The notes under the pieces were generated by a model that made no database searches, was not told the DNA's origin, and saw only the letters and a program-made list of their open reading frames with translations. This document shows positions 117 through 8,694 of a stretch of 51,038 nucleotides of DNA, one piece after another. How positions within the stretch are numbered: position 1 is the stretch's first letter; each line of letters starts with the position of its first letter. The stretch is taken from positions 1-51,038 of the forward strand of contig DSBG01000167.1 of NCBI GenBank assembly GCA_011046135.1, written 5' to 3'. The position numbers were made by a program, and so were the translations under genes. The DNA is from Deltaproteobacteria bacterium (GTDB lineage Bacteria; Desulfobacterota; Desulfomonilia; UBA1062).

Positions 117-1403
117 TTAGTGGTCAGTGGCTTTTTCTCGGGTAAATCTCAGGAGATTGAAAAAGAACCCGTACCGTTCCACTCCCTGGGAGTGTTTATA
201 GGAGGCCAGGAACGAGAGAGACCACGAGGTGCCCTCGGTGCTCTGTTCCCAGGCAAAGGTTCTCCAGAGAAGGGAGAATGTCGAGGCGTCTCCGCAGCGC
301 GTTCCATGGGCCAGGGTAAGAATCGGCGCCCAGTTTCTCATGAACCCATCGTCCGTGAACAGCGGGAGCACACACGGGAAGAACCAGCGACTGTCGTCAT
401 CGCTGTAGTCACGATAGAAAAGAGGAAAGAGCAGGAGTCTGCCGGAGCTCTCCTCGCCGGGCCCGATTCGGGAACTCTTTGTGCCGAGCAGGAGAATTGC
501 TGTACGCTCTTCCCTGATTCCCATGTCTTCATAGTGACTTTCCTTGTGGGTGAAAAAAGGCCAGAGGATTGAAAGCATTGTGTGCTGTGCACCCCTGGAC
601 TTCGACCAGTACAACGGAAAGATGCGTGTTTCCTCATATCCGCCCGAGGCCCATCGGATAAGGGGCCAGAGGATGTCCGTACTGGTGTGGTCTGAATCGG
701 AATCACGGTTGTAGGTAAAGAAGGGCCAGAGAAGAGAGAGGCTCGTGTGCGACGGACCGCGGTCGTACCAGAAGAAGGGAAGAAAGGCATCAATAGTCCG
801 TATGCCACGCTCTCGATGGATCAAAGGCCAGAGAATTGTCTGGTAGACTCCCCCTGAAGTTTTTTCCCAGCCATAGAGGGGAAAGACAACCAGGGTCTTC
901 CCATGGCAATAGCTGAAAATAGGCCACAGGAGGCGATAGGTTGTGTCGTCGTTCTTTCTGGTATTCGCATAGAGCGGCCACAGGAGGAACCGAGCTTCGT
1001 CAAAACCGAACCGGTTGAACATGACGCCGTACACCGGAAAGATACCACCATAGGGGCGTTCACGGTAGCTGCCTGAGAAAAAAGGAAAAAGTGTCGTGTG
1101 GGTGTGATCTGCATCTAAGGTTCTTGAATACAGGGGGGAGAAACGGGATCTCTGGTCTGAAAATCGTCCGAGGGGATAGAGGATATCCGTTTCCTGATGG
1201 AGATTGTCACGTGAAAACAGGGGCCTGAACGCTGTAAAATCAGGATGTATCTCGATAAATGGCCCGAGTACGGTTACATGATATCCATCGGGATGGGGGT
1301 CTGAGGTGAAAACCGGGGCAACGTTGAGTGCGAAAGCGCCGAGTTGTGTTCCGGAGAACAGCCACGCAAGGAGCAACCCGGTTATCAGCGCGGATCTGAG
1401 CAT
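117..1403 (-). CDS. Exported protein with repeated aromatic-proline motifs, unknown function
   Basis: This 428-residue protein opens with a hydrophobic signal-like segment (residues about 5-25). From about residue 73 to 345 it carries at least a dozen short motifs of the form hydrophobic-hydrophobic-W/F-P-L/F-F/Y/I, such as LLWPLY, VVFPLY, ILWPLI, LLWPFF and RIFPLY. They are spaced roughly 12-22 residues apart and separated by charged loops rich in D, R, H and S. The alternation of aromatic strands and polar turns suggests a beta-repeat protein, perhaps in the outer membrane. I do not recognise a named family. It is the last gene of the def-fmt-rpe-TPR-MCE operon, one base after the MCE stop codon, so a role in envelope lipid or lipoprotein handling is a guess from context. 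Confidence 0.75.
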   Translation of the reverse strand: MLRSALITGLLLAWLFSGTQLGAFALNVAPVFTSDPHPDGYHVTVLGPFIEIHPDFTAFRPLFSRDNLHQETDILYPLGRFSDQRSRFSPLYSRTLDADHTHTTLFPFFSGSYRERPYGGIFPVYGVMFNRFGFDEARFLLWPLYANTRKNDDTTYRLLWPIFSYCHGKTLVVFPLYGWEKTSGGVYQTILWPLIHRERGIRTIDAFLPFFWYDRGPSHTSLSLLWPFFTYNRDSDSDHTSTDILWPLIRWASGGYEETRIFPLYWSKSRGAQHTMLSILWPFFTHKESHYEDMGIREERTAILLLGTKSSRIGPGEESSGRLLLFPLFYRDYSDDDSRWFFPCVLPLFTDDGFMRNWAPILTLAHGTRCGDASTFSLLWRTFAWEQSTEGTSWSLSFLASYKHSQGVERYGFFFNLLRFTREKATDH

Positions 1404-1404
1404 G

Positions 1405-2430
1405 TTACCAGATCAGACCCAGGATGGTTCCCATGATGGTAATCGGCGTCTGTTCTTCTAGACCCCGTGCCGCGAGATTAACGCTGCGGATGGTCTCTTT
1501 AATTTCCTGATAGAGATCGTCATCCACGAGGATATGGCCCAGAGTGCCCCTGCCCGACGCAATCTCTTCGCTGATGAATCTGATGTTTTCTGATACGGCC
1601 AGGAGATTTTCATACAAGGATGGGTCGGTCATGAGCATGCTGACCGTGCTGTCATCGTTGAGACGAGAGGTGAAGGCTTGTGCTGAATCGAGAAAATCCA
1701 CCAGGCTGAGGTAGAGCGTGTCGTCGTGAACGAGTTTCCCGAGCGTGCCTTCCCCTGCACTGATGGTGTTTGTGATCTGGTCGATATGGTCACTCGTAGT
1801 AGAAAGGTTCTGCGATACTGTGGCAAAGTTGTCCGTGATCTCTCCCAGAGAGATCACGATCTCTGCGATACCCTCCCGGTTTTCACTCAGGATGGATGCG
1901 GCACTTTCAGAGAACTGAGTGACATTGTTCAGGATCCCCCTGAGAAGCTCCTCGTCCCCGAAGACTTCATTGAAGACACCAGAGAGTTCCGTGAGGTTCG
2001 CGGCCAGCTCGCCGAGTTGTGTGAGGAGGAGATCCAATGAGGGGGGTATCCGTGTCCGAGCCAGATTTCCACCTGGTTCAATGATGTTTGAAGACACCCC
2101 GGGGGTAAGGATGATGATCTTGTCTCCCAGCACCCCCTTGGTAGCTATGGACGCAGTGCTGTCGATGGGCAAGCGGATGTCCTCATGAATGGCTGCTCTC
2201 ACCAAAGCCGAAAAGTCCTTGTTCAGAGAAATGCCGACAACCTTGCCGACCTCCACTCCTGCGAGTTCAAGAGGTGACGACTCTTTCAATCCATCCACGG
2301 AGGAAAAAACCATGGTTATCGGGTAGGTTTCCTTTCTGCCGAGGGTAAGTTCACCGATTTGCATGGAGAGTAGAATGAACAGGATAAGAATGATGACGAC
2401 AAAGATTCCAACTTTTGCCTCATTCGTCAT
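1405..2430 (-). CDS. MCE/MlaD family lipid-transport substrate-binding protein
   Basis: The 341-residue product has one N-terminal membrane anchor (about residues 8-28) followed by an MCE domain (about 35-115). Visible MCE features are the VDGL.....LAGVEVGKV stretch and the STKGVLGDKII-like strand. A long helical C-terminal part (about 135-320) follows. MCE proteins form hexameric rings that pass phospholipids or other lipids between the inner and outer membranes, with an ABC permease and ATPase. No mlaE or mlaF lies next to it here, so its transporter partners must be elsewhere. The ATG at 2430 is preferred over an upstream TTG at 2436 because AGGG lies at good spacing before it. It follows the TPR lipoprotein by 27 nt. 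Confidence 0.85.
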   Translation of the reverse strand: MTNEAKVGIFVVIILILFILLSMQIGELTLGRKETYPITMVFSSVDGLKESSPLELAGVEVGKVVGISLNKDFSALVRAAIHEDIRLPIDSTASIATKGVLGDKIIILTPGVSSNIIEPGGNLARTRIPPSLDLLLTQLGELAANLTELSGVFNEVFGDEELLRGILNNVTQFSESAASILSENREGIAEIVISLGEITDNFATVSQNLSTTSDHIDQITNTISAGEGTLGKLVHDDTLYLSLVDFLDSAQAFTSRLNDDSTVSMLMTDPSLYENLLAVSENIRFISEEIASGRGTLGHILVDDDLYQEIKETIRSVNLAARGLEEQTPITIMGTILGLIW

Positions 2431-2457
2431 GGACAACCCTGCACTCTCGATTTTTCT

Positions 2458-4020
2458 CTACTCCAGGATCAACCTGATCTTTTCCTGGAGTTCCTCTGAG
2501 GGTGTTTTCTTGAAAAGGGAAGACTTCAAGTAATAATCAAGTGCCCTGTCCTTCTTTCCCAGACTCATCAGTATGTCTCCCATGTGCTCGTTGATGATCG
2601 GATCACTGTTGAGAATTTTCACCGACTGTTCAATGAAGCCCAGGGCCTCATGGTACCTTCCCATCCTATAGAGCACCCATGCCATTGAGTCAAGAATATA
2701 GGGGTCGTCGGGTTTCTGGTCGAGGGCTTCTCTGATCATGCGATATGCCTCTTCCAGGTGGATGCCGGAGTCTGCCCATACATATCCCACGAAATTGAGG
2801 GCAATTGCGTCGTGGGGATTTTTTTCAAGAAGAAACAGGGCGATCTCGAGGCCCTCTTCACGCTTACCGATGCTGTCCAGTTCAGTGGCGAGCTGATGTC
2901 CGATTTCGTTACAGGTGTCACGTGTGGGGAGATGTTCCCATGCAAGGGAGAGTACCGTGACACTTTCATCCGGTTTTCCCATGTCCCTCAGGATTGAAGC
3001 CTTGAGCATCGTGACGTCACAGAGGAGTTTATCTGCAGGAATAATCTCATCGAGGATGTTCAGGGCATGTTCAAACCTGCCCATACCTGTGAGCGCTATG
3101 GCGTGATAGTACCTGTCGTCTTGAGATGGTTCCTCCAGGGTGCTGATATGCTTGAGGGCGATTTCGTGCATTCCCTCCTGGAGGTAGACGATGATGAGCT
3201 TTCTCGTCAGCTGGTCGCTCGGGCTTATCTCATGGAGAGCGTTCAGATGGATGAGGGCATCCTGGTATCGCTTCTGTGTGATGTAATAATCCGTCAGTTC
3301 TCTATGGGCCTCGATGGAGGAGGGGCTTATCTGCAAGAGATCCAGATAGATGCGCTCCACCAGCTCAGGTTCTTCGAGCATATCGTGAATCCTACCCAGG
3401 TCGAGGTAGGCCGGAGTGAAATCAGGCCTGATCTCGATGACCTTTCTCAACGACTCTTTGGCGCAGTCAAGGTCTTTTTCTGCGAAACACGCCTTTGAAA
3501 GGGTGTAGAGGGTCATGCTGTCATCGGGTGTCCCCAGTATGGACTCGAGGATGGTTCTCGATTGTTGAAACTGACCCACCACGATTTTCAGGTTTGCTAA
3601 AAACATAAGGAGCTGCTGGTTGTCAGGATGGTTGAACAGCAGCGATTCCGTGTCGTCGATGGCAAGCTGCCACTGGCCGGCTTTTGCATAGATCTTTGAC
3701 CTGATCTTCAGGGCCTCATCGCGGTACGTTCCTTCTTCGATGATTCTGTGGAGGGTTTCCAATGCAGGTCGAGGCTGATTCAGGACAAAGTAGATACGAG
3801 CCTGAGCGAGAAGGGCAAAAGGATCAGGTATCCTGGAATAGAGTTCAAGTGCCGAATCCCAGTTTCCCTGGTTTTCTTCATACCTGGCGAGCAGCATGAT
3901 GAGTCTGGCATTGTTCGACTGAAGGGGGAGAGGTTCATCCCCCACCTGGGGCAGGTGAGCGCATGCAGCGAGGCTCATTGCTGCTATGAGTATGAATGCG
4001 AGTGCCCTAACCGATATCAC
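2458..4020 (-). CDS. Tetratricopeptide-repeat lipoprotein
   Basis: This 520-residue protein has a lipoprotein signal (hydrophobic residues 5-18, lipobox LAAC with Cys at about 20), so it should be anchored to a membrane on the periplasmic side. The rest is a long array of TPR-like helical hairpins, with repeated ALxxY and A-x-P-D-x spacing up to the C-terminus. TPR solenoids act as protein-binding scaffolds. The start is a GTG at 4020, inside the last codons of rpe (14-nt overlap). The frame has no better early start, and the signal peptide begins immediately. Operon position between rpe and the MCE protein hints at envelope assembly work but does not define it. Confidence 0.8.
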   Translation of the reverse strand: MISVRALAFILIAAMSLAACAHLPQVGDEPLPLQSNNARLIMLLARYEENQGNWDSALELYSRIPDPFALLAQARIYFVLNQPRPALETLHRIIEEGTYRDEALKIRSKIYAKAGQWQLAIDDTESLLFNHPDNQQLLMFLANLKIVVGQFQQSRTILESILGTPDDSMTLYTLSKACFAEKDLDCAKESLRKVIEIRPDFTPAYLDLGRIHDMLEEPELVERIYLDLLQISPSSIEAHRELTDYYITQKRYQDALIHLNALHEISPSDQLTRKLIIVYLQEGMHEIALKHISTLEEPSQDDRYYHAIALTGMGRFEHALNILDEIIPADKLLCDVTMLKASILRDMGKPDESVTVLSLAWEHLPTRDTCNEIGHQLATELDSIGKREEGLEIALFLLEKNPHDAIALNFVGYVWADSGIHLEEAYRMIREALDQKPDDPYILDSMAWVLYRMGRYHEALGFIEQSVKILNSDPIINEHMGDILMSLGKKDRALDYYLKSSLFKKTPSEELQEKIRLILE

Positions 4021-8073: not shown

Positions 8074-8694
8074 TCAGTCTGTGGGCGCTCTGCCCCTATT
8101 CTCAGGCTCCGGAGCGAAATCGAGATCAAACAGATCGTGGTCGAGCCCCACATCGAATGCATAGTCGGTCAGCGTAATATCGCTGTAGTTTCCCGTGGAG
8201 TCTCTCAGGAGGAGTCTGTGTATCAGGTGCTCTTCAGTGGTCCAGATGGTCAGGGAGCCCGTCCCGTTCCTCGGGGTTAACAACAGGACATCTTCGAGCT
8301 CACTCACCGTGTACATCTCTTCCAAGGAGGCAAGTCCTGCAAAGAATCCCAAGATGTTCTGCGTGGCGATCTCTTTTGGAATTTCCTGAATCGTCGAGGT
8401 TCCTTCTTCCGGCAAATGAATGGCCACGGTATTCTCCAGGAGAATGATCACCTGACGCTGAGGAGTGAAGACATCCATTCTCACGCCGGAAGCGACATTC
8501 ACGGAGAGTTTTCCGGTGAAGTGAACCGTCCTGTTGGCCAGGAGCTGGAAGGTTTCCTGAGAGAAGGAAGCCACGAAATCCCGATGCCCTGAGTACCGGG
8601 TCTGGATCTCATCGAGGACTTCGGCATGAAGAGCCCCTGTAAAGGCCAGGAGAATCACGCTGATGAAAAGACTACTCTTCCAGTTCTTTGGCAT
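8074..8694 (-). CDS. lolA: Outer-membrane lipoprotein carrier protein LolA
   Basis: The 206-residue protein has a cleavable signal peptide (about residues 1-24, ending ALHA). The mature part matches the LolA fold: an early stretch around DFVASFSQETFQ, then the GKLSVNV and TPQRQVIILLENT strands and an alternating beta structure. LolA carries lipoproteins across the periplasm from LolCDE to the outer membrane. The start overlaps the end of ftsK by 23 nt, and ftsK-lolA adjacency is common in proteobacteria. It is the last gene of the plsC operon. Identity is by pattern, as LolA sequences are weakly conserved. Confidence 0.85.
   Translation of the reverse strand: MPKNWKSSLFISVILLAFTGALHAEVLDEIQTRYSGHRDFVASFSQETFQLLANRTVHFTGKLSVNVASGVRMDVFTPQRQVIILLENTVAIHLPEEGTSTIQEIPKEIATQNILGFFAGLASLEEMYTVSELEDVLLLTPRNGTGSLTIWTTEEHLIHRLLLRDSTGNYSDITLTDYAFDVGLDHDLFDLDFAPEPENRGRAPTD

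Follow-up and report, generated by a model that had tools for sequence, protein, structure and literature searches.

An exported WP-repeat protein family linked to a barrel-less MlaD as a probable outer-membrane-side part of MCE lipid transporters

The window analysed here, a stretch of 51,038 nt, is one entire contig of a 2.9 Mb source genome assembled in 181 contigs. Near its start lie three consecutive genes, all on the reverse strand, encoding a TPR-repeat protein, an MCE-domain protein of the MlaD kind and an exported protein with a long array of WP repeats (Table 1). The name REP is a working name given here to the last of these products and its homologue family. A single base separates the end of the MCE ORF from the REP ORF, and the MCE product matched the MCE domain model well above its threshold (PF02470, 1e-16, 61.4 bits against a cut-off of 25.1). 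All gene calls are longest ORFs, so start positions are uncertain. The three genes close a conserved run, ftsK-lolA-SIR2-aroE-def-fmt-rpe-TPR-MCE-REP, in which the LolA-like lipoprotein carrier (8074–8694, reverse strand; PF03548 at 1.2e-13) is consistent with a capacity of this genome for lipoprotein sorting to the outer membrane. Neither mlaE nor mlaF was present beside the MCE-REP pair. The single mlaE of the source genome occurs on another contig (L073:6910–7677, forward strand), behind a glycerol-kinase-like gene and without mlaF or mlaD, and mlaF was not located anywhere in the source genome.

Table 1. Positions of the genes and protein features discussed in the text, in window coordinates.
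Feature	Position	Strand	Remarks
REP, exported WP-repeat protein, 428 aa	117..1403	-	ATG at 1403, stop 117-119
REP signal peptide, predicted type I, residues 1-25	1329..1403	-	assigned by eye, AFA before LN; lipobox absent in this copy
REP repeat array, approximately residues 27-349	357..1325	-	units of ~18 residues, one hhWPLF-type motif each
MCE protein, hydrophobic C-terminal tail of 17 residues, starts EEQTPIT	1408..1458	-	conserved; candidate docking strand
MCE/MlaD partner, 343 aa, TTG start, barrel-less	1405..2436	-	sole MlaD found in the source genome
TPR-repeat protein, upstream in the same gene run	2458..4020	-	conserved here only in f1 (the source's family)

The preliminary description of this locus, made from the sequence, had reported a dozen or more W/F-P-L-F/Y motifs in REP, and 13 matches to the pattern [FWLYV]P[LFIV][FYLIV] were counted, whereas 5000 same-residue shuffles averaged 0.75 and never exceeded 5. 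Its remark that the protein matches no known family also held, as REP had no family match in Pfam or NCBIfam and none among PDB sequences even at E 10, and a 21-member REP alignment was likewise without relatives in these three collections. In an alignment of 129 homologues, 17 prolines are near-invariant (positions 30, 48, 61, 77, 90, 123, 143, 161, 175, 193, 209, 227, 247, 263, 282, 327, and 347, each kept in 87–100% of sequences) at a spacing of mostly 17–22 residues, indicating that the motif pattern is conserved and not compositional. REP comprises about twenty of these short repeats. Within a unit of ~18 residues, W or F precedes the proline, L or F and then F or Y follow it, positions -3 to +2 around it are hydrophobic, and a charged or G/D/N-rich stretch lies midway. 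Family members are 420–500 aa long.

Relatives of REP were identified in 37 of the 41 nearest genomes of the source and, using a profile search, in 114 of 395 genomes sampled evenly across the phylum, spread over 27 family labels (hand count, phylum-wide set). The distribution figures are phylum-level; the one search that reached further, a scan of genome contigs with short patterns, recovered six loci, all from metagenome-assembled Deltaproteobacteria/Thermodesulfobacteriota. No relatives were found in viral contigs, nor on plasmids with two queries. As the genomes are phylogenetically related, counts across them, here and below, are not independent. An apparent second copy in the source genome (G000:C4, E 0.005) was treated as a chance match, since none of the three forward frames at that contig end encodes a repeat protein. 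A weak second REP-like ORF (a 276 aa open frame, L199:5833–6624) occurs in genome G007, on the same contig as MlaA and MlaC. Judged by these searches, REP is a large protein family without a prior name.

A conserved linkage of REP with the MCE gene, on which the preliminary description had made its interpretation depend, was recovered across genomes. An MCE/mlaD gene occurs immediately upstream of REP in 103 of 132 loci (median gap, 8 bp; ≤30 bp in 84/103), and a second order, with REP immediately before mlaE, occurs in ten (nine detected by program and L197 added by hand). This second order, REP-mlaE-(mlaF)-mlaD, is carried by divergent REPs (L183, L184, L192–L197, L170, and L181). The commonest operon is mlaE-mlaF-mlaD-REP, with REP as the fourth gene, and in most loci mlaE and mlaF fall within the same run. 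The coupling to an MCE gene without mlaE or mlaF, as first described, is therefore true of the source locus, where it is a local split, and does not extend to the family. Among the loci of f1, def-fmt-rpe-TPR-MCE is followed by REP in 18/20, with the remaining two at contig edges. In a second family (f2), MCE precedes REP in 14/14 loci, mlaE and mlaF are usually upstream of MCE where inspected, and both were found in 12 of the 14, one with a short MlaE match. The 98 regions outside f1 and f2 (97 genomes plus one second match) divide into MCE-REP (n = 71), REP-mlaE (n = 10), contig edge (n = 3), and neither (n = 14), where the values of 71 and 14 are derived by subtraction from totals of 103 and 15, with L197 moved to the REP-mlaE class. 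Nine of the 14 regions in which REP does not adjoin mla genes belong to a single family, f30, in which REP adjoins a CoaD-like gene (identified by eye) in the inspected cases. The proposed co-occurrence with the TPR lipoprotein gene proved to be confined to f1, with TPR upstream of MCE in 18/20 loci compared to 0/14 in f2, and this gene probably lies outside the core system.

The partner MlaDs share a distinct form. Their median length is ~342 aa (n = 113), with a median of 44 residues beyond the last GxGTLG motif, compared to 210 in MlaDs fused to a C-terminal domain of ~180 residues with alternating hydrophobicity. By this length after the last GxGTLG, the MlaDs of the source and of the other REP loci lack a C-terminal β-barrel. 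According to PMC10665443, the MlaD of Veillonella parvula carries a barrel of this kind, and two barrel-less MlaDs are predicted to end in mini-barrels built from one strand per subunit. The REP partners instead terminate in a short hydrophobic tail with a consensus close to EQ-P-I-T-V-L-G-T-L-G-T-L-F, detected in 111/113 partners and in 0/19 barrel-fused MlaDs; the two unmatched partners (L094 and L121) have MlaD reading frames broken into pieces. By analogy with the predicted mini-barrels, the tail may form such a structure with one strand contributed per subunit. At a separate locus, a 586 aa ORF (L278:2600–4360, reverse strand) has an MCE start running into a TolC-like outer-membrane factor, either as a fusion or through an assembly-error frameshift.

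REP and the tailed MlaD were inherited together. In one order with 46 genomes, REP is present in 28, all of which possess a tailed-type MlaD or a piece of it: 26 have an adjacent MlaD of 307–369 aa, the partner of G443 is cut by the contig end (L300), and in G419 pieces of REP and MlaD lie at contig ends. None of the 18 REP-negative genomes of this order has a tailed MlaD; these keep short MlaDs, other-type MCE proteins of ~300–390 aa, or none. Phylum-wide, MlaD lengths were compared for the best 150 matches by E-value, out of matches in 384 genomes. Among these 150, none of the 30 MlaDs longer than 400 aa occurred in a REP genome, compared to 27 of the 31 MlaDs of 216–400 aa. The four mid-length proteins outside REP genomes dissolve as counter-cases on inspection, as one is a tailed MlaD on a contig that starts at mlaE, one is cut by its contig, and two are of other types. 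That REP might belong to another envelope process and merely be co-transcribed with the transporter genes is suggested by its separation from mla genes in f30 and a few others, and by the housekeeping genes upstream at the source locus. This would leave it to coincidence that many families link REP to the transporter genes, in two different orders, and that REP is co-inherited all-or-none with one MlaD type, and we regard it as very improbable.

The components that complete other Mla systems are mostly missing from REP genomes. In 42 REP genomes chosen by hand (22 from f1, 5 from f2, and 15 others, mostly with a single MlaD), MlaC was absent from 41 and MlaA likewise from 41, the source genome being without both; the sole exception was G007, which has REP along with MlaA and MlaC. 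In sister mlaE-mlaF-MCE operons of the same order, the fourth gene encodes a PF03886 (PqiC-type) lipoprotein (4/4 tested), which suggests that REP holds the slot taken there by an outer-membrane lipoprotein. These sister operons (L290, L293, L296, and L302) are of a mixed Mla-Pqi type, with an N-terminally extended mlaE (~376 aa), mlaF, an MCE of ~310 aa, and the lipoprotein. Co-inheritance with the tailed MlaD would be expected equally if REP were a periplasmic assembly factor or plug for the MlaD tunnel that does not handle lipid but acts on the hydrophobic tails by folding, capping, or regulating them. Genomes without MlaA, MlaC, and a fused barrel would then be left without an outer-membrane component, unless it is one that went unrecognised, and the PqiC-type lipoproteins that fill the same slot in the sister operons also speak against such a factor, which we consider improbable.

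Sequence features of the REP N-terminus point to export. A hydrophobic N-terminal segment is present in 141 of 142 homologues, and 25/142 carry a lipobox by pattern, of which ~21 were accepted by eye (discarded: L038, L048, L060, and the doubtful L185). The source REP and most homologues lack a lipobox. In E. coli, Asp after the lipoprotein Cys causes retention in the inner membrane. The residue after the lipobox Cys in REP homologues is mostly Ala and never Asp, so at least some REPs appear to carry a lipid anchor, with the outer membrane as its most likely site. From its ordinary signal peptide, the source copy is predicted to be periplasmic or outer-membrane-associated.

The fold of REP can be stated with much less confidence than its probable side of the envelope. 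AlphaFold2 returned very poor models both for REP with seven sequences (pLDDT 31) and for the fragment encoded by window positions 531–1088 (pLDDT 36), and that both place hairpins between successive prolines is a hint at most. Direct-coupling and pairwise-property covariation analyses (~95–103 effective sequences) gave no usable signal for hairpins, parallel stacking, or a barrel, with adjacent repeats scoring above more distant ones on average. Beta-strands are a plausible reading of the motifs. The repeat profiles are alike at all lags from 1 to 7 (correlation, 0.37–0.42), and this equality leaves a β-propeller or alternating up/down strands unsupported. In description, the array resembles MORN-type β-hairpin repeats, which have short equal units, a polar turn, and conserved aromatics, but the REP motif is centred on W-P and Pfam repeat models did not match REP.

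A further possibility is an integral outer-membrane β-barrel of ~20 strands, each centred on a WP motif and together enclosing a hydrophobic lipid lumen, as a free-standing counterpart to the barrel that fused MlaDs carry. Such a barrel would explain why REP substitutes for barrel-fused MlaD in REP genomes, and if the motif lies mid-strand, polarity is lowest over the stretch from -5 to +4 relative to the proline, with aromatics near both ends. The dyad alternation of hydrophobicity expected of barrel strands is missing, however (lag2-lag1, -0.04 in 129 REPs compared to +0.21 in 19 fused barrels), as is an up/down alternation of repeats (profile correlation, 0.405 at lag 1 and 0.411 at lag 2). 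Outer-membrane barrels typically end in an aromatic residue, and just 17/143 REPs have a C-terminal F, W, or Y; it would also be odd for each strand to have a proline at its centre. Several clades have lipoprotein forms, and profile comparison detected no similarity between REP and the barrel of fused MlaDs (hhalign probability, 0.1 over one column), though for barrels a missing similarity is weak evidence. Overall, the sequence pattern gives no support to a classical integral barrel, which we consider unlikely.

Taken together, REP probably serves one type of MCE lipid transporter as its dedicated component on the outer-membrane side. The observations behind this reading are the linkage, the co-inheritance, the exclusion of barrel-length MlaDs, the absence of MlaA and MlaC from most REP genomes, the signal peptides, and a minority of lipoboxes. 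MlaE (permease) and MlaF (ATPase), with a barrel-less MlaD of ~342 residues, would make up the engine in the inner membrane and, in the periplasm, a tunnel assumed to be hexameric as in known MCE proteins. The tunnel would reach towards the outer membrane and end in the conserved hydrophobic tails, on which REP may dock. As an exported protein, lipid-anchored in several clades, REP would sit on the periplasmic face of the outer membrane, presumably also in the case of the source copy, and would receive or deliver phospholipid there, depending on the direction of transport. In doing so it would replace the C-terminal barrel of fused MlaD, MlaA together with MlaC, or the PqiC-type lipoproteins of other systems. 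The earlier idea of an outer-membrane partner for lipid or lipoprotein transfer thus survives on its lipid side, as the best reading, while nothing points to lipoproteins. Counting against this role, mla genes do not adjoin REP in 14/98 regions from families other than f1 and f2, the source genome has its mlaE on another contig, most REPs are without a lipobox, and G007 has both MlaA and MlaC. A more specific and tentative proposal is that REP is a new kind of lipid-handling protein with ~18–20 equal WP-cornered β-hairpin or solenoid units, whose W-P-L-F residues would stack into a single unbroken hydrophobic seam and pass phospholipid between the MlaD tails and the outer membrane, and that REP with the tailed MlaD makes up a separate trans-envelope MCE type, with which barrel-fused MlaD has alternated as the phylum evolved.

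The transporter kind is already known from several systems. All of them share the MCE protein, and the canonical MlaFEDB-MlaC-MlaA system also has MlaE and MlaF in common with the REP system but differs in MlaC and MlaA, which were found neither in the source genome nor in 40 of the 41 other chosen REP genomes. As described in PMC10665443, the Veillonella parvula system resembles the REP system in having MlaE and MlaF, in the helical region of its long MlaD, in the absence of MlaA and MlaC, and in reaching the outer membrane, and differs in that a 10-strand barrel is fused to its MlaD in place of a barrel-less, tailed MlaD with a separate REP. PqiC, a PF03886 outer-membrane lipoprotein in the PqiABC system (PMC10897342), is like REP an exported protein in its own right whose gene accompanies an MCE gene. 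This likeness extends to the lipoprotein forms of some REP clades and to the shared gene slot in sister operons; the PF03886 model has 161 positions, compared to a repeat protein of 420–500 aa, and matched 0/21 REP members at E 1. No description of the REP gene or of the tailed MlaD signature was found in the open-licence literature searched, where both the outer-membrane-side family and the signature are apparently undescribed.

The barrel is present in only ~10% of MlaD sequences, and as yet unidentified proteins have been suggested for the barrel-less ones (PMC10665443). In bacteria that lack MlaA and MlaC, the finding bears on the way in which an MCE transporter makes its connection to the outer membrane. 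For one phylum, REP is a concrete candidate, a single gene that adjoins mlaD and is co-inherited with a MlaD type that bears a signature, which makes the question experimentally testable. REP and the tailed MlaD would together provide a genomic marker for a fourth arrangement, beside the canonical Mla, PqiC-type, and barrel-fused systems.
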